Origin: Thermus sp. CCB_US3_UF1
GTDB taxonomy: Bacteria; Deinococcota; Deinococci; Deinococcales; Thermaceae
Direction of reading: 5' to 3'
DNA length: 64,000 bases
Assembly (NCBI RefSeq): GCF_000236585.1
Contig: NC_017278.1
Location: 1-64,000 of the forward strand
Shown here in pieces: positions 56,561 through 64,000 of this stretch (positions are counted from its first letter, which is position 1; every line of letters starts with the position of its first letter). The notes beneath the pieces are model-generated. The model made no database searches and was not told the DNA's origin. It saw only the letters and a program-made list of their open reading frames with translations. Both the position numbers and the translations under genes were made by a program.

Positions 56561-56637
56561 GGGCGGCTAGCTCAGCTGGTCAGAGCGCTCGCCTTACAAG
56601 CGAGAGGTCAGAGGTTCAAATCCTCTGCCGCCCACCA
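56561..56637 (+). tRNA. tRNA-Val (TAC)
   Basis: Acceptor GGGCGGC/GCCGCCC with encoded CCA, anticodon loop CTTACAA giving TAC, and T-loop GGTTCAAATCC. It is the last host-type gene before the low-G+C element and a plausible attachment target, since tyrosine integrases often use tRNA 3' ends. Confidence 0.97.
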
Positions 56638-56709: not shown

Positions 56710-56973
56710 GAGGGTGTACGTCCCTGACCTCTCCCTCTCCTCTCCCAGTGGTGCTGAGGTCAGTTGGAGAATCCGCGAAGACAAGCATGAGGCACCTCCT
56801 TGATGGCTAGGGTTGGCCTATATCCGGAAACTAACGGAGACCGTTCAACGCAGTTCACAGACACGGGCAAGGTTTCCAAGGTGCTAAGAGGCGATCGCAT
56901 TCTGTAGCGGTCCAAATTCCACCCCCACCATCCGATTCGGTTCTTTATACCCCATCCTGAGATTGGTGTCGGA
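56710..56973. other. Gene-free stretch at the element's left end
   Basis: About 260 bp of moderate G+C with no convincing reading frame, RNA gene or terminator. A frame at 56963-57151 overlaps the PIN-like gene and is taken as a shadow. The segment may hold attachment-site sequence. Confidence 0.5.
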
Positions 56974-57414
56974 TCAGAGCTTCAAAGGGAAGAGTTGGTA
57001 CCTCCTGCTCCCTCGCTTTTTGGGGTCTACACTGAAGCGGACCACAAAGGGCGCAGAGTTTTGCTTTAGGAAACCAGTGACCTTTCCCTGGGCTTGGGCA
57101 AACTCCTCTGCTAGGAGCAGAAGCCAGCCACGTTCCGGTTGCTTGGGCTGAGTGAAGAGGATAACCCTGGCCCCGAATGAGCGAAGGATAGCCCTTTCCA
57201 CTGGACGGTAGCGGAGTTGGGCATCAAGAGTGAGGATCACCCATCCTTGAGCGCTGACCTGAGGAATCCACTCCTCATCGGGAGTGTCGGGAGAAAAAAG
57301 CTCATCATGGGCCTTGATTTCGAGCCCTAGCTCTCGTAAACGCTGGGGAAATCCCTTGCCTAGGTTGCGGTCGCAGAAGTAGACCGGTTGGCCAAGGGCT
57401 GCTTTGGGGGTCAT
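56974..57414 (-). CDS. PIN-like toxin (DUF5615/VapC45 type)
   Basis: A 146-aa predicted ribonuclease toxin. The pattern of acidic residues is that of PIN-like DUF5615 proteins: VYFCDRNLGKGF (Asp15), PDEEW (residues 45-49) and LTLDAQLRYRP (Asp64). The ATG at 57414 overlaps the antitoxin stop in ATGA, so the pair is coupled with the antitoxin first, the usual order. Codon use is less G+C-rich than in the host genes. Confidence 0.78.
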   Translation of the reverse strand: MTPKAALGQPVYFCDRNLGKGFPQRLRELGLEIKAHDELFSPDTPDEEWIPQVSAQGWVILTLDAQLRYRPVERAILRSFGARVILFTQPKQPERGWLLLLAEEFAQAQGKVTGFLKQNSAPFVVRFSVDPKKRGSRRYQLFPLKL

Positions 57415-58130
57415 GCTGCCCAAGCATCTACCCCCATCCCCTCAAACACCAGCGCTTCTGTCACCTCTTCCTCAGTCAGACCGTAGTCCTTTGCGATTTC
57501 CTCTAAACCCTCTCCGGTGTTGAAGCGCAGGGCGATGACCGAGGTCTTCACCCCACGTACGGTAGGGGCTCCAAAGGCTACCCTTGGGTCCAGGACCACC
57601 CTCTCGCTCCGTAGCTGGGTCCCGACGGCGGGGTGGAAGCGCAGGGGGATGCCCTGTTCGTCCCTGTCCACACGGGAAAGGTAGCTTTCCAACACCTCCT
57701 GCAAAGCCAACTGCCCAGCCCGGGTCAGGGCCAGAAGCTCTTTCCCTTGCCTCAAAAAAACGTCACCCAACCCTGCTTCCAGGTCCAGGAGGAGAGGCCT
57801 AGGTTTCCCCAAGGCTTCCTTAGCGTAGTCAATCATCCTGCGGATACGTTGCATGGGGATCCGGTGGATCTGGCGCAGGGCTGCCAAGACATTGGCCTCC
57901 ACAAGGTTGAAGAAGGAGAGCTGCGACCCGTTGCCGGGTGTCTCTATTAGGGGCAGGGACCTTTCCTGCCCTCCCGCCTTCGGATAGGTCCGGCCCATGA
58001 TCCAGGAGCGTAGGGTAGACTCCGATAGACCCAGGTACCGGGCTGCTTCTCGAAGAGAGTAGAGGGGGCGGTCCCTAGGGTCTGGGGCCAGGAGAGGGGA
58101 GTGGTTTTGGGCGGCCCTACTCGCCTTCAT
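57411..58130 (-). CDS. Antitoxin: HTH plus DUF433 domain
   Basis: A 239-aa protein. Residues about 24-45 (YSLREAARYLGLSESTLRSW) form a MerR-like helix-turn-helix. Residues about 170-232 (VVLDPRVAFGAPTVRG, EGLEEIAKDYGLTEEEV) are DUF433, the VapB45-type antitoxin domain. It precedes and overlaps the PIN-like toxin. It is larger than most DUF433 antitoxins because of the added N-terminal region. TAAACT (58138-58143) ends 7 nt before the ATG. Confidence 0.8.
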   Translation of the reverse strand: MKASRAAQNHSPLLAPDPRDRPLYSLREAARYLGLSESTLRSWIMGRTYPKAGGQERSLPLIETPGNGSQLSFFNLVEANVLAALRQIHRIPMQRIRRMIDYAKEALGKPRPLLLDLEAGLGDVFLRQGKELLALTRAGQLALQEVLESYLSRVDRDEQGIPLRFHPAVGTQLRSERVVLDPRVAFGAPTVRGVKTSVIALRFNTGEGLEEIAKDYGLTEEEVTEALVFEGMGVDAWAA

Positions 58131-58135
58131 GAGGC

Positions 58136-58342
58136 TTAGTTTAACTCAGGAATAGGGTTGCCAAGGTTAGCTTCGCCCAGCACCCTATCATGGAGGATGG
58201 GTTTCAAGCCTCTCTGTGGGACTAGGTGCGCGGGACGATCCAAGAGCTTGGATAGCTCACGTGCTATCCGGGCCAGGGTCAGGAAGCCCACGGTGACCTC
58301 GGGTTCGAACTCTGCCAGGAATAAACCTACAAGGTCAGCCTT
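58136..58342 (-). pseudogene. Remnant of a MNT-type nucleotidyltransferase antitoxin
   Basis: The last 68 codons of an open frame read LVGLFLAEFEPEVTVGFLTL, then ARELSKLLDRPAHLVPQRGL and LKPILHDRVLGEA, as in small MNT-domain nucleotidyltransferases (typically DLLVEFEPG...RPVDLVTPxAL...RVLREA). The N-terminal GSxxRG and catalytic aspartates are missing; further upstream the frame runs into the 254-aa gene. No HEPN partner is present. It appears to be a truncated fragment. Confidence 0.6.
58138..58143 (-). promoter_or_regulatory. Leaderless -10 box of the antitoxin
   Basis: TAAACT on the minus strand, 7 nt before the antitoxin ATG at 58130. It lies in the end of the nucleotidyltransferase remnant. 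Confidence 0.5.
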
Positions 58343-58371
58343 ACAAGGTGGACCTTGAGGGCTGGGAAGTC

Positions 58372-59136
58372 TCAGCTCTTGGTGATCCGAGCCAGGTCTC
58401 GTAGCATGCTGGACAAGAACCAGCGCCTCAGCGTAAGGGGCCATATGGAGGTGGATGAACCATCTGCCAAACTCACCTTCACATTCACGACCAAGGTCAC
58501 TTCCAAGAACCTCTTGTCGAAAGGCCAAGGTGCGCCTTTGGTTGTTAGGGGTCCTGTAACTCTTACCCCCTCACGCCCCAACAAGAGCAACCTGTCCCTA
58601 AGGTTGTCTGGGCACGTTTCTTCTAGCATATTTTTTTGACCAAAGTCAGAGAGCCTAATGGGCCTGCCCCCAATACAAATACCTATGCTCCAGAGATACG
58701 CTAGATGAAATCGCCTCAAGAGAGGGTCAGAAGGTTTAAGTTCGGTGTCGAGAACCTTGTCGGAGGTAGCCCACTTGATCCGGGGTGAGCCCCCCTGCCT
58801 GTACCAATTCCCTATGCGGAACCCCTCAAAGCTAGCCTCCCAGTAGGGTAGAGCATCCGTTTCCTTCACTTCAAGCTTCTCGCGACCTAGGGGTAGATGG
58901 ACAATCGAAATCTCCCCCCCAGGTGCCCCCTCTATCCGAATGGCGGGCACAGACTCAAGGGGCGCCCAAGGTGCCCAGAGATTAGCCTCCCTGACGCCCT
59001 GGCCTTGGGTCCAGATTCTCATAAGGGACCCAGGGGTACTTGCTGGAGGTGGCTTTATACACACCACTTCAGCTATAGTTGTCCACAACTGCTGGGCCAG
59101 TTCTGGGACTTCACTTTGGCCTAGCCTCTTCTCCAT
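58372..59136 (-). CDS. Unknown protein, 254 aa
   Basis: I do not recognise a family. The protein has no signal peptide or membrane segment. It contains aromatic-rich mixed segments (SFEGFRIGNWYRQGGSPRIK) and several Arg/Leu helices near the end (DNLRDRLLLLGREGVRV). It is divergent from the HExxH operon with 49 bp between starts, and its 3' end abuts the nucleotidyltransferase remnant. TAGGAT (59146-59151) lies 9 nt before its ATG. Its G+C is low compared with the host genes. Confidence 0.65.
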   Translation of the reverse strand: MEKRLGQSEVPELAQQLWTTIAEVVCIKPPPASTPGSLMRIWTQGQGVREANLWAPWAPLESVPAIRIEGAPGGEISIVHLPLGREKLEVKETDALPYWEASFEGFRIGNWYRQGGSPRIKWATSDKVLDTELKPSDPLLRRFHLAYLWSIGICIGGRPIRLSDFGQKNMLEETCPDNLRDRLLLLGREGVRVTGPLTTKGAPWPFDKRFLEVTLVVNVKVSLADGSSTSIWPLTLRRWFLSSMLRDLARITKS

Positions 59137-59145
59137 CTTGCATCC

Positions 59146-59151
59146 ATCCTA
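59146..59151 (-). promoter_or_regulatory. -10 box of the 254-aa gene
   Basis: TAGGAT on the minus strand, 9 nt before the ATG at 59136. Confidence 0.4.
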
Positions 59152-59185
59152 CTAGAGGGAGTAATCTCTTCCCAAGAGGTGGACC

Positions 59186-60001
59186 ATGCAACCTCCTTTG
59201 CAAGCTCCCAACTTGGGCTCTGCTGCGGAAGATGCCGTTTCGCTGGACAGGGGTGAGCTCTATAGGCGGATGGATGTGGAAACCCTATCCTTGGCCCTCA
59301 GGATTCCTCTTTTCTTAGCTAATCCCAAGCAAATGGACCTACTGGCGCCAGCTTGGAGGCGGGAATTAGAGCCCCCTCCTGTAGGCCTTTACGTCCGCCA
59401 AAAGCCAGAAGGTAATAACTTGGAAAACTTCCTTGCTTTAGGTGAAAACCACTTGGAGAAGAAAGCCCGTGAGTTTTTCTGCAACCTTCATCCTCATACC
59501 CCTTTCATCCTGATATGTCCGGAGCGAGCAATAGAATGGGCATGTAAAACCGGAGCTAGCTTTGAGCTGATTTTCGATAAGGTCTTCTACCACGAACTAG
59601 GGCATGGTCGAATGGACTCTGCCCCTGAGCCGAATGCTCTTTGGGCCCACACAATAGAGGAAAGTTTAGCGAATGGCTGGTCCCTCAGACTCTTTGAGGG
59701 TGCCGAAAAGGCCTGGGTTCTGAGGCTTATTCCAGGGCAACCCGAACCTTACCGGGGAGTCATGTACCTGGTGAAGCCCACTTTTTGGGAGGCGCTGGGG
59801 AGGGAAGGAAGGATTGAGGTCATAGAGGAATTCCTCCCCGGAAGTTGGTTCAATGGCTTCGACTATAAGGAACTCTTGCGCCGAATGGCTGAGGCTTGGT
59901 ATAGAAGCAAGCCACTCTTAGATGCCGACTCGAGAATAACCGAGTTCTGGCAAGCCTTGGGGGAACGTTTGCTGGAGGCGGTCAGGGCAAATCTACCATG
60001 A
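59186..60001 (+). CDS. Putative HExxH metalloprotein
   Basis: A 271-aa soluble protein with HELGH at residues 136-140 (VFYHELGHGRMD) and a Glu pair at 158-159 (HTIEESLANGW) placed as the third zinc ligand of gluzincin-type peptidases. The rest matches no family I know. A ribosome site AGAGGTGG precedes the ATG. The stop overlaps the next gene in ATGA, so the two are coupled. Protease activity is inferred from the motif only. Confidence 0.75.
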   Translation: MQPPLQAPNLGSAAEDAVSLDRGELYRRMDVETLSLALRIPLFLANPKQMDLLAPAWRRELEPPPVGLYVRQKPEGNNLENFLALGENHLEKKAREFFCNLHPHTPFILICPERAIEWACKTGASFELIFDKVFYHELGHGRMDSAPEPNALWAHTIEESLANGWSLRLFEGAEKAWVLRLIPGQPEPYRGVMYLVKPTFWEALGREGRIEVIEEFLPGSWFNGFDYKELLRRMAEAWYRSKPLLDADSRITEFWQALGERLLEAVRANLP

Positions 60002-61494
60002 CCCCTCTTGCCCAATACGCTGTTACGCTATACGCCTCGTCCCTGTTTGCCCAAAAGGACGACTTTAAGCGGCTCGTAGAGGAGATTTTCACCACAAACT
60101 ACAAGAACCCCGACGAGGCTTTCGAGCATTTGAAGGACTTCTGGTTTGGGAACAAATCCTTGGTAAATCTCTTCACCCTCTTCGTCTCCCGCTCCGATTA
60201 CAACCGGATAGAGTACGAAGGTGCTCCGGGGACGGAGGACCCTGAGGAGAAAGCCTTCCTCGATGAGGAGGACAAGTGTAAGTACGAGCTGGTCTACCCC
60301 TACTTTGGGGACCTCCAGAAGACCCTGGACCAGTTCTCCATGGCTCGTCCTTCCATCGTCCGTCAAGTGGCCCAGAAGGTTAGGACTTCGTTAAACCAGC
60401 AGCGGGGAGGCGCTTCCTTCTACATCAGCCTCATGCAGGAGAGCTTTGACCTCCTGCTTCCTGCCGCGGTCCGCAGGAAGTACCTGGCAAGGCTCCGTCC
60501 TGTGTTAAACGTCCTCTCTTCTAACCCTAGAAGGATAACTGCCATCCCTGCCGGGCTTCTTTCCGCCACCCAAGAAATCGATGAGCTTAGCAGGGAGCTG
60601 AGCCAAGAGCTTGGTCTCAAGGAGTCTTACGAGGACGAGCATGCGGAAGGGAGCGCGCCTCTCCTTCCCCTCTACGAAGGCAAAGACGACACTGGCCTTT
60701 TCTCTGAGCTAGCTACCGCCTTGCGCCGTCAAAACCTGACCATCCTCTCCACCACGGCCAAGATGATTTCCAGCCAAGTCATCAGCTTGGCGAGGCAAGC
60801 CCTGGACTTCATGGCTTCTAGCTACAAGGGGGACCCCGAAGCCTTTACCAGGGCCGTCCACAACGTTGTGGACCACGCCTTCTACTCCGCCCTCGGGCTC
60901 AATGGTCTTTTCCCCGTGTATGTCTACGACTACAGGGTCACCGCCATTGACGAGCACGAGAGGGTCGTTCCCATCTTCTTCGGCTTCCTTGAGAGAGAGT
61001 TATTGGTAGGTGAGTCCACCCTTGCAGGCGCGTACTTGGCCCTCGTCCACAGCGGCATCGCTCGGGCTAAAGATGGGAAGTCCCTGCCCCTTCCTCAGAT
61101 GATCCAAGGGCTTGCTAAGCAGTTTGCCAAATCCTTCACCGCAAAGAGAGTGGCTGAAAAGGTTTTCAAGGAGTCCGGGATGGGGGACTCCACAAGAGAC
61201 CTATTTGAGGTTGACGAACCAGAAGCGGTCCCTGTCAACCTCACACCCAGGCAGGTCTTTGCTCAAGGGCTTGCCAACATGCTCTCTGAGAAGCTCGCTC
61301 CTCCAGAGGTTCAGAGGAGCGGCTACCGAACCTTCTATTCGATCCAAAACTTTATCCTGTTTAGACCAAAGTTTGCGAATGCCGTGGTCAAGGTCGCTTC
61401 CGAAAATCCTGGTTTCATGTTGGACCAGGCTACCCAAGATGTTCAGAGAGGATTTAGGACTGGATTTAATACCTACAGGGGAAGGAGCGTTTAG
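59998..61494 (+). CDS. Unknown 498-aa protein of the HExxH operon
   Basis: Not recognised. It is largely helical and charged, without signal peptide, membrane helix or an obvious nucleotide-binding motif. Notable parts are an acidic stretch near residue 80 (EDPEEKAFLDEEDKCKYE) and a Tyr/Gly/Arg-rich end (RGFRTGFNTYRGRSV). It starts inside the stop of the HExxH gene and is followed after 41 bp by the 166-aa gene. The tight coupling suggests that it works with the HExxH protein. Confidence 0.75.
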   Translation: MTPLAQYAVTLYASSLFAQKDDFKRLVEEIFTTNYKNPDEAFEHLKDFWFGNKSLVNLFTLFVSRSDYNRIEYEGAPGTEDPEEKAFLDEEDKCKYELVYPYFGDLQKTLDQFSMARPSIVRQVAQKVRTSLNQQRGGASFYISLMQESFDLLLPAAVRRKYLARLRPVLNVLSSNPRRITAIPAGLLSATQEIDELSRELSQELGLKESYEDEHAEGSAPLLPLYEGKDDTGLFSELATALRRQNLTILSTTAKMISSQVISLARQALDFMASSYKGDPEAFTRAVHNVVDHAFYSALGLNGLFPVYVYDYRVTAIDEHERVVPIFFGFLERELLVGESTLAGAYLALVHSGIARAKDGKSLPLPQMIQGLAKQFAKSFTAKRVAEKVFKESGMGDSTRDLFEVDEPEAVPVNLTPRQVFAQGLANMLSEKLAPPEVQRSGYRTFYSIQNFILFRPKFANAVVKVASENPGFMLDQATQDVQRGFRTGFNTYRGRSV

Positions 61495-61535
61495 CCCACA
61501 GCAACCACACATGTTAGGTTTCCCCTACCCTCCCA

Positions 61536-62036
61536 ATGGCTCAGCGGAAGGTAAAAGAGTCGAAAAATCCTATCCTGCAGGCTTTGGAGATGTCCTCCAG
61601 GTTGCAGGACCTCTACGAGTACGTGGCTCATCGCGATCTGGTCTTTGTAGAGATTCCCTCTTCAAGCTTTTTGGTCCCAAGGATGGAAGAGGAGGAAGTA
61701 GAGGACTTTGCCAAGACGCCCATTGTACGCTTCTACCGGGGCGTGCATCCGCTCGTGCTCTATATCGACAATCGGATAGCCGTCCCCGTAAACTCCTCCC
61801 TGCTCCAGCCTTACTACTCCTACCTCCGCTATCTGGTTTCCACGCAACCTGCGGTTTGGGCTCATACCGGCAGCGTTTCCTCGTTTCTCACTCCTTGCGG
61901 AGCTAGGAGAGCCCACTCACCCGTTGGCAGCGGTGGAAGGGAAGAAGCCCGGTCCAGTCTAGGACAGGGGAAGAGTTTGTTTGCTCCCGGAATGGCTCCC
62001 CTCTTGCAAGCCTCAGGACTCAAGCCTGTGGCCTGA
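61536..62036 (+). CDS. Unknown protein of the HExxH operon, possibly frameshifted
   Basis: A 166-aa frame as it stands. The first 110 or so residues look like a real protein (DLYEYVAHRDLVFVEI; PLVLYIDNRIAVPV). After about 61855 the sequence becomes unlike a folded protein. In the +1 frame the same stretch reads RFGLIPAAFPRFSLLAELGE and ends at TAG 61960-61962, clear of the integrase. This suggests a one-base frameshift or another natural end. In the present frame it overlaps the integrase end by 17 bp. Confidence 0.55.
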   Translation: MAQRKVKESKNPILQALEMSSRLQDLYEYVAHRDLVFVEIPSSSFLVPRMEEEEVEDFAKTPIVRFYRGVHPLVLYIDNRIAVPVNSSLLQPYYSYLRYLVSTQPAVWAHTGSVSSFLTPCGARRAHSPVGSGGREEARSSLGQGKSLFAPGMAPLLQASGLKPVA

Positions 62037-63192
62037 CGGCGGGCAGGCCAAGGAGGGTCTCCAGGTCCACCACATATCCCCTGCGCTCCTCTTCCAGGAG
62101 GTGGCGGTAGATCCCTAAGGTCACATGGGGACTGGCATGCCCCAACCGTTCGCTGACCACCTCCAGGGGGATACCCCGGGAAAGGGCCAGGCTAGCCCAG
62201 GTGTGCCTGAGGTCGTGGACCCGGACTTTCCCCAGTCCTGCCCTCTGGGCTAGACGGCGGAGGTAGTGGTTGAAGGCATCGGGGTCAAAGGGCTTGTTGC
62301 CCCCAAAGAGAAAGGCTTCCTCCAGGACTTCCTGAGGCAGGCGCTGAGCTAGCTCCTCCTTCCAGGCCCTGAGGCGGAGGAGAAGGCTTTGGGGCAAGGG
62401 GACAACCCTTCGGGCTGTTCGGGTTTTAGGCTGGGTGAAGTCTCCCTTGCCGTTCACCTTGGTCCAACTCCGCCAGACCCGGAGTTCCCCCCTTTCCAGG
62501 TCCACGTCCCGCCACTGCAGGGCCAGAGCCTCGCCCCGCCTTAGACCCGTCTCCAGGAGAAGGCGAAGGAGAAGAGCCATCTCCCGGCTCCTTGCCCCAT
62601 CCGCAACTTCCAGGAGACGGAGCACCTCCTGGGGCTCCAAGGCCCGGGCTGCCCTTTCCCCTTGGGGCAACCGGAGCCGTATAGCCCCTGCGGGATTGCG
62701 GGGGAGGAGTTCCAGTTCGCAAGCCCTCTGGAAGAGGGCCCGGAGCCGGTTCAGGACCTTGCGCACCGTTCTAGGGGCATACCCCTGACGCAACTGGTCC
62801 ACGACCCTCTGAACATGTAGGGGCCGCACCTCCTGGAGGCGCATCCTTCCCAAGGGATCATGGGCTGAAGGGTCCTTCAGGGAAGGCAGGGCGTAGACCA
62901 ACTCCTGACGAGCCAGCCGGAGGGAGTTGGGTCTCAAGCCTTCCCCTTCCAGCCCCTGGAGGTACCTCTGGGCAAATTGGACCACGGTGACCTGGGAAGG
63001 CTCGGGAAGGAGACCCTGGGCCCTTTCCGCCACCATCTTGGCCAACAGCTCCTCCGCCTCCCGGCGCGTGCGGGCGTACCGGCAGAGCTTCTTCAGCTTC
63101 CCCGTAGCCTCGTCCACCCAACGGAGCTCGGCCACCCACTTTTGGGCTGCCTTGTGGTAGTACGTGGTTCCACCGCCTTTACCCCTGGCCAT
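62020..63192 (-). CDS. Tyrosine site-specific integrase
   Basis: A phage/ICE-type integrase, 390 aa from the ATG at 63192, which follows GGAGGTTGGAGG; the frame continues upstream to 63225. It has an N-terminal arm-binding region and a SAM-like core-binding domain at about 65-160. The catalytic domain has Arg218 (TGLRRGEA), Lys256 (TQPKT), His326 and Arg329 (VHDLRHTW), His352 (LGHAS) and Tyr362 (IYRHL). All catalytic residues are present, so the enzyme may be active. The replication gene ends 30 bp upstream. Confidence 0.93.
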   Translation of the reverse strand: MARGKGGGTTYYHKAAQKWVAELRWVDEATGKLKKLCRYARTRREAEELLAKMVAERAQGLLPEPSQVTVVQFAQRYLQGLEGEGLRPNSLRLARQELVYALPSLKDPSAHDPLGRMRLQEVRPLHVQRVVDQLRQGYAPRTVRKVLNRLRALFQRACELELLPRNPAGAIRLRLPQGERAARALEPQEVLRLLEVADGARSREMALLLRLLLETGLRRGEALALQWRDVDLERGELRVWRSWTKVNGKGDFTQPKTRTARRVVPLPQSLLLRLRAWKEELAQRLPQEVLEEAFLFGGNKPFDPDAFNHYLRRLAQRAGLGKVRVHDLRHTWASLALSRGIPLEVVSERLGHASPHVTLGIYRHLLEEERRGYVVDLETLLGLPAVRPQA

Positions 63193-63221
63193 CCTCCAAC
63201 CTCCTTCGGTCCCTAGCTTGC

Positions 63222-64000
63222 TCACAGCTTTGGAACCCCGCGATCGGATTCTAGCCCTGGCCCGTTTACAGACAGGGCTAAAGGCCTCAGCCTGTTTCCT
63301 CCGGCCAGACGTTCCCTTGCCACGACTGCCTTGGAGAGGGCACCCAACACCGCTTCAAGCAACCCTTGCTCCTTCCTGACCTGAAGGAGCTCCGGGAGAG
63401 GCAGATAAGCAGATCCCTTGGAGACCTTGTTGCCAGAGGCATCGGGGTGGAAAAAGCCTACCTCCACCCTCTGGATGACACCCGCCCGCTTGAGTAACCC
63501 TAGGGCCTCGGACACCGTTCGCTTGGATACCCTGTACCTCTTGGCCGTGGCATTGTACCCTATGCGGGCAACCCCAAAGAGGGAGGCTTTCTCCAGAACT
63601 TCCGCGCTGATCAAAAGGGCGAGCCGGACGGTGGAGGAGGAAAGGCCTAGGTCCCGAGCCCAAGCCCCTAGGCGGTCGGGGTTTGTCTCTAGAAAGCTCT
63701 GCACCTCTTGGAGCAGACCACCCCCTAAAACCCCCTCCAAAAAGTCGTGCCAACACACCTCTCTCCTGGTCCTGGCTCTCTGGTAGGTCCTGCGAATCCC
63801 ATAGAGCCGCTTGCTCTTTTCCTCGTCCCCTTGCAGCAGGTGCTGGACCTCTTGGATGAACACTTCCTCGGGGATCCCCTGCCGGGCAGCAAAACCAGCT
63901 AGACCTAGGATCAGATTCTGCCGACTTCCCTTGACGTAACCCAAGGAAGCAGAAGAGATTAGCCGCCTTAAACCCTCCAGGGTTCCCTGCTCCAGCCAGC
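63222..64000 (-). CDS. Replication protein, C-terminal part (runs off window)
   Basis: The frame stays open to the window end, so the gene begins beyond it; 259 codons are present. The first visible part (LEGLRRLISSASLGYVKGSR, then a helical region with IRRTYQRAR) resembles the end of primase-polymerase or helicase replication proteins of plasmids and ICEs. Residues after about 110 form a winged-helix region (AKRYRVSKRTVSEALGLLKR). Thermus ICEs are known to carry primase-polymerases; identity here is inferred. A TTG at 63944 is not taken as the start. Confidence 0.6.
   Translation of the reverse strand, partial: WLEQGTLEGLRRLISSASLGYVKGSRQNLILGLAGFAARQGIPEEVFIQEVQHLLQGDEEKSKRLYGIRRTYQRARTRREVCWHDFLEGVLGGGLLQEVQSFLETNPDRLGAWARDLGLSSSTVRLALLISAEVLEKASLFGVARIGYNATAKRYRVSKRTVSEALGLLKRAGVIQRVEVGFFHPDASGNKVSKGSAYLPLPELLQVRKEQGLLEAVLGALSKAVVARERLAGGNRLRPLALSVNGPGLESDRGVPKL

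Follow-up and report, generated by a model that had tools for sequence, protein, structure and literature searches.

Jumbo phages are known to encode MoxR-vWA pairs with a metallopeptidase domain, for which a role in virion assembly has been proposed by analogy with the MoxR-vWA system that Acidianus two-tailed virus needs to build its tail (PMC7824862). AAA+/vWA pairs were also found in haloarchaeal tailed viruses (PMC7911831). The phage phiLo, a myovirus of 178.5 kb, originates from el Tatio (PMC6452258), and ICETh2 is an element that integrates at the Val-tRNA gene in T. thermophilus (PMC7693054). The present analysis concerned a cluster of four open reading frames (ORFs) in the first 64 kb (64,000 nucleotides, hereafter the window) of contig 2 of Thermus sp. 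CCB_US3_UF1, which has a genome of 2.26 Mb and relatives including Thermus arciformis, T. thermophilus and T. brockianus. Two of the ORFs were homologous to adjacent genes of phiLo, the second being cut short, and a third encoded a predicted HExxH metallopeptidase of a family found in Thermus. The cluster was read as a probable captured piece of a phage operon in an ICETh2-like element.

The four ORFs encoded products of 254, 271, 498 and 166 amino acids (aa) and lay where the initial annotation had placed them (Table 1), the 166-aa ORF spanning 61536-62036 on the plus strand. The reported ATGA overlap (59998-60001) and 41-bp gap (61495-61535) were both real. Searches of the four ORFs against Pfam, NCBIfam, PHROGs, and PADLOC showed no convincing family match, and weak library matches to AraC_N and PglX were taken as chance. 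The initial annotation had seen no phage motif in the cluster; this did not hold, since the 498-aa and 166-aa products had homologues encoded by neighbouring genes of phiLo (MH673673), a lytic Thermus myophage, next to its tail-tube genes. A tblastn search of 50,697 phage records with the 498-aa protein gave a single match, phiLo_02 (26% identity, 99% of the query, E 1e-24). Residues 10-110 of the 166-aa product matched the N-terminus of phiLo_01 (59% identity, E 1e-37), and phiLo_02 and phiLo_01 are neighbours in the same order as in the window.

The 166-aa ORF had been counted as a gene and partner of the other two, and it turned out to be the truncated 5' stub of a giant AAA+ gene followed by read-through. 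Similarity to phiLo_01 ended at about 61,868, where the G+C content by codon position shifted from 0.59/0.34/0.68 (coding) to 0.61/0.66/0.54 (non-coding). The remaining 56 or so codons were read-through into the end of the integrase gene, and the last 17 bases of the ORF lay within that gene. The missing AAA+ part was also sought in another frame after a frameshift; this was rejected, as no frame on either strand of the next 535 bases scored above shuffles against phiLo_01. With phiLo_01 (1724 annotated residues) as query, no other match was obtained in the genome or in 111 genomes of the phylum. The stub corresponded to the N-terminal region of about 110 residues upstream of the AAA+ modules and contained no MoxR-clade AAA+ ATPase domain. 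The homologies to phiLo and the truncation of the motor are firm, and the gene order and the insert are likewise shown by the data.

In phiLo, the corresponding genes formed a module of four (phiLo_03, phiLo_02, phiLo_01, and phiLo_165) located at MH673673 1-8888 joined with 176243-178531. The phiLo_01 gene was cut by the record end; its frame resumed at the opposite end for another 126 codons, so that the protein amounts to about 1850 aa. The record is labelled linear, yet this reading frame crosses its ends. Two AAA+ modules were recognised in phiLo_01, AAA_16 at residues 223-395 (below the cut-off) and AAA_5 at residues 790-872 (22.6 bits, cut-off 22), together with a PHROG ATPase match (E 1e-9). 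By eye, the modules showed MoxR-like Walker B and sensor motifs (VMFVDELDRN, GVVILDEFTRAD, VIATGN), which placed phiLo_01 among the MoxR-clade AAA+ proteins. The next gene, phiLo_165 (625 aa), encoded an extended low-complexity acidic region, after which came FVDVSGSMD and later GGRSLIT and WFSD, in the order expected for a vWA MIDAS domain. Upstream, phiLo_03 (738 aa) carried LMHEFLHIYLGH, an HExxH arising in less than 1% of shuffled versions. The two genes directly before it, phiLo_04 and phiLo_05, matched a tail-tube PHROG (E 3e-17 and 7e-13), shared its strand, and stood at short distances, so that the module lies among the virion genes of a tailed phage.

The window shared with phiLo the order HExxH gene, 498-like gene, AAA+ gene, with end-to-end homology of the 498-aa protein and 59% identity over the first 110 or so AAA+ codons. 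It differed in that its HExxH protein belonged to another family, the AAA+ gene was cut after about 110 codons, the vWA gene was not found in the genome, and no tail genes lay nearby. A candidate zincin-type peptidase was still associated with what remains of the ATPase gene, the HExxH gene being two genes upstream of the AAA+ stub and ATGA-coupled to the 498-aa gene. Compared with the group 2.2 jumbo phages (Iyer et al. 2021, PMC7824862), phiLo likewise joined a MoxR-type ATPase, a vWA protein, and a zincin peptidase in a large phage, but its ATPase was a giant with two AAA+ modules, its peptidase was a separate protein, and a 498-like protein was added; the window retained only the peptidase, the 498-aa protein, and the stub.

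The 271-aa protein of the window carried the reported HELGH, at residues 136-140, and EE at residues 158-159, and the motif was conserved in an alignment of six Thermus homologues. H136, E137, H140, and E158/E159 were invariant, and within HELGH only the G varied. The EE pair stood 18-19 residues downstream, within the 18-20 or so residues at which gluzincin-type peptidases have their third Glu ligand. The motif was taken as real because of this conservation and not on account of HExxH by itself, which arose in about 1.1% of shuffled 271-aa proteins. The protein is, by its sequence, a member of a gluzincin-like peptidase family and a Thermus island gene, and its peptidase activity is predicted. 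No sequence relative was present in the PDB, and an AlphaFold2 model from a two-sequence alignment had a mean predicted local distance difference test score (pLDDT) of 37.8. A match to Klebsiella phage Miami (E 0.09) did not cover HELGH and was judged chance after its context was read.

A profile search found the HExxH family in 8 of the 111 genomes, all within the genus of the window, and a protein search found it on five Thermus megaplasmids. Its recurrent neighbours were a divergent hypothetical pair (one TPR-like), a BNR-like lipoprotein, an MBL-fold hydrolase or an AddAB-like nuclease-helicase pair, and DUF262/GmrSD. CRISPR-Cas genes lay close by, and an Argonaute-like gene was present in T. 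arciformis, the Argonaute and type I-G labels there coming from reading of the sequence and not from a profile. On the megaplasmids (for example those of T. thermophilus JL-18 and HC11 and T. brockianus), the HExxH protein was 34-44% identical to the aligned homologues, with HExxH and EESLAN invariant. The recurrent locus there comprised the HExxH gene, two divergent hypothetical genes, the BNR-like lipoprotein, a 65-aa protein, MBL-fold or AddAB-like genes, and DUF262; it is possibly an uncharacterised defence or DNA-processing locus. Unlike it, the window had neither the two hypothetical genes, the lipoprotein, the MBL-fold or AddAB-like genes nor DUF262, and also lacked the high G+C content at third codon positions. 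The initial reading was supported in so far as the HExxH family recurs in Thermus islands that also contain Argonaute, CRISPR, GmrSD, and MBL genes. A complete new three-gene defence system found no support.

Apart from the window, the only 498-like copy among the 111 genomes was in T. arciformis (L004:10787-12204), flanked by a 254-like gene on one side and by type I-G CRISPR-Cas genes on the other. Over the whole gene it was 72% (protein) and 76% (DNA) identical to phiLo_02. By sequence comparison, this copy is a phage gene captured whole by a Thermus island. Thermus appears to have captured a phiLo_02-type gene at least once more, because the T. arciformis copy is 76% identical in DNA and has a G+C content of 52.5% in an island of about 70%. 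All three known 498-like genes follow an HExxH gene, though two HExxH families are involved, and the 498-aa protein is therefore likely the partner of a metallopeptidase. An AlphaFold2 model of it, also from a two-sequence alignment, had a pLDDT of 34.

The 254-aa protein showed a short similarity to the T. arciformis gene (35% over 48 aa, pairwise E 6e-4). A 254-like gene was found in three of the 111 genomes (in the third as a profile match, E 2e-5) and a 498-like gene in two; both always adjoined the HExxH gene, and there was no PADLOC match. The HExxH, 254-like, and 498-like genes stood together again in T. arciformis.

The cluster had been described as cargo of an integrase element, and this was borne out. 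A related tyrosine integrase stood at tRNA-Val in the window, as in ICETh2-type elements (PMC7693054), but about 5.3 kb of extra cargo lay between the two, and a DruE-like helicase lay further inside. In genome G070, the distance between the same tRNA-Val gene and a related integrase (72% DNA identity) was about 78 bp; in the window, about 5.3 kb lay between the repeats on the tRNA side (TTTTTACGGCAGTTTCTACGGCAGTTG) and the integrase gene end. The insert boundaries were set by comparison with G070, to roughly +/-15 bp. Its content was a PIN/DUF433 toxin-antitoxin pair and the four ORFs. No direct repeat of the tRNA-Val 3' end of at least 13 bp occurred within 60 kb downstream, and a copy of that end near 61.87-62.02 kb, expected after tandem integration, was looked for and not found, so that neither side of the insert was marked by a tRNA 3'-end repeat. 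The block of four ORFs was flanked only by toxin-antitoxin, integrase, and replication-type genes, away from any virion genes. Its G+C content was 52-55%, against 69% in the first 56 kb of the window and 51% in the phiLo DNA compared; the HExxH gene itself had 52%, a phage-like value, against about 69% for the T. arciformis copy.

Table 1. Features of the tRNA-Val end of the element in the window
Feature	Position	Strand	Remarks
tRNA-Val(tac)	56561..56637	+	attachment-side landmark of the ICETh2-type element; same tRNA cluster in G070
Insert of about 5.3 kb	56741..62013		parts the tRNA-proximal arm repeats from the integrase 3' end
254-aa protein, no recognised fold	58372..59136	-	weakly like the gene between the HExxH and 498-like genes in T. 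arciformis
271-aa HExxH (gluzincin-like) metallopeptidase, predicted	59186..60001	+	HELGH at 59591-59605, EE at 59657-59662
498-aa protein, phiLo_02 homologue	59998..61494	+	26% over 99%, E 1e-24; T. arciformis protein 27%
5' fragment (about 111 codons) of a giant tandem-AAA+ (MoxR-type) gene	61536..61868	+	59% identical to the phiLo_01 N-terminus
Read-through tail of the 166-aa ORF	61869..62036	+	without phiLo_01 similarity or coding pattern; enters the integrase gene
Tyrosine integrase of the carrier element	62020..63225	-	PF00589, E 1.6e-28

Other features were seen around the insert. On its tRNA side (56974-58130), overlapping genes for a PIN_10-domain protein and an HTH_66/DUF433 protein formed the probable toxin-antitoxin pair. 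The stretch 58136-58330 on the minus strand resembled the C-terminal portion of a protein of the nucleotidyltransferase type, had no start, and is a possible gene remnant; a plasmid search with it gave no match. Beyond the window, at 68710-74256 of contig 2, a helicase of 1848 aa similar to Druantia DruE (PADLOC E 2e-99) neighboured a 529-aa protein of unknown kind, both within the low-G+C region of the integrase. In G070, an MBL-fold gene (L073:9472-11073) followed immediately after the related integrase at this tRNA-Val site and resembled the MBL gene beside HExxH genes.

With a probability of roughly 60%, the cluster is a truncated piece of a captured phiLo-type myophage operon combined with a Thermus-type HExxH metallopeptidase and carried by an ICETh2-like element, at its tRNA-Val end, as recent low-G+C cargo. 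Phage origin is likely for the part from the 498-aa gene to the AAA+ stub. In the phage, judging by gene order and precedent, the module may serve virion assembly: the vWA protein would grip a substrate protein, the AAA+ ring would remodel it through ATP hydrolysis, and the peptidase would trim the remodelled substrate, with the 498-like protein as a putative helical adaptor joining peptidase and motor during tail or virion assembly. The window would then retain the peptidase in intact form, together with the adaptor and a stub from the N-terminal region of the motor. Such an energy-driven cycle could not run there, because the motor stops after about 110 codons and the vWA gene was not found, and the remnant is presumably mostly passive cargo.

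Several observations weigh against this account. The HExxH family of the window was absent from the phage records searched, and homology of the 271-aa protein to phiLo_03 was tested and not supported, none being detectable. Divergence from the phage was far greater for the 498-aa protein (26% identity to phiLo_02) than for the AAA+ stub (59% to phiLo_01). The HExxH and 498-aa ORFs were intact and ATGA-coupled, which a passive remnant need not be. The search with the vWA-like protein of phiLo, which found no match in the window genome or in 27 genomes of the genus, had no positive control. The vWA assignment of phiLo_165 itself came from motifs, its profile searches giving no match, and the assembly role of the phage module is proposed from gene order and precedent.

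A rival explanation, which we consider unlikely, is that phage parts were domesticated in a defence locus; the ATGA coupling of the HExxH and 498-aa ORFs counts in its favour. The 498-like protein and the AAA+ stub would act as a decoy, sensor or dominant-negative competitor against an infecting phage of the phiLo type: they would either block its assembly chaperone or set the HExxH peptidase free to act as an abortive effector. Both host 498-like genes lay just downstream of an HExxH gene, itself present in 8 of the 111 genomes, and a 254-like gene stood at the HExxH gene in all three genomes that had one. The second capture, in T. arciformis, was at the same kind of locus, and that copy was intact, taken from near the start to near the stop, between Argonaute and type I-G CRISPR genes. 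However, most HExxH loci had neither a 498-like nor a 254-like gene, the clustering may mean an insertion hot spot, and intact ORFs could be recent arrivals, their G+C content not being ameliorated. A bolder form of this explanation, to which little credence is given, is that Thermus repeatedly captured one phage chaperone subunit beside an HExxH peptidase and employs it as a decoy or trigger specific to the phage; the 498-like protein, alone or together with the N-terminal region of the motor, would enter the phage chaperone, bring in the host peptidase, and sabotage virion assembly.

The cluster could also be what is left of a MoxR-vWA conflict system, cellular or mobile, which phiLo acquired as well, as a weapon, and whose complete ancestor would have been a defence system; this is quite improbable. 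MoxR-vWA couples with peptidases are predicted conflict systems (Kaur et al. 2020, PMC7159879), restriction-type genes of phiLo lie 5-15 kb from the module, and the HExxH family is found in host defence islands. Against these stood the lack of a complete host copy in the 111 genomes, the position of the phiLo module directly after tail-tube genes on the same strand, and the phage-like composition. Pattern scans of viral contigs for the HExxH protein, the 498-aa protein, the AAA+ N-terminus, and phiLo_01 also gave no relatives, an absence that is weak evidence because the scans rest on a few short peptides.

A CobST-like use, with the phage AAA+/vWA pair as a cobaltochelatase-type ATPase for cofactor synthesis and its leftover in the window, is very improbable: the acidic linker and MIDAS motif of phiLo_165, which we take to be CobT-like, were counted in its favour, but the giant tandem-AAA+ phiLo_01 is unlike CobS, CobS/CobT family models gave no match, and the tail-tube and HExxH neighbours do not fit. 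The idea draws on the wide occurrence, among tailed viruses, of cobS-cobT pairs that are annotated as subunits of cobaltochelatase (PMC8651126).

If the cluster is captured phage cargo, the supposed new defence system is replaced by a traceable history, in which a phage chaperone operon was captured and then cut. The stub illustrates a pitfall: behind an unremarkable ORF length there can be a truncated giant gene that continues as read-through. For the phage, the analysis points to an unannotated four-protein AAA+/vWA/HExxH module in phiLo with a tandem-AAA+ motor of about 1850 aa, and the 498-like proteins would form a new protein family, of which three members were found here. For Thermus, the repeated pairing of a phage 498-like protein with a host HExxH peptidase offers a concrete, testable case of assembly parts that may have been domesticated in immunity.

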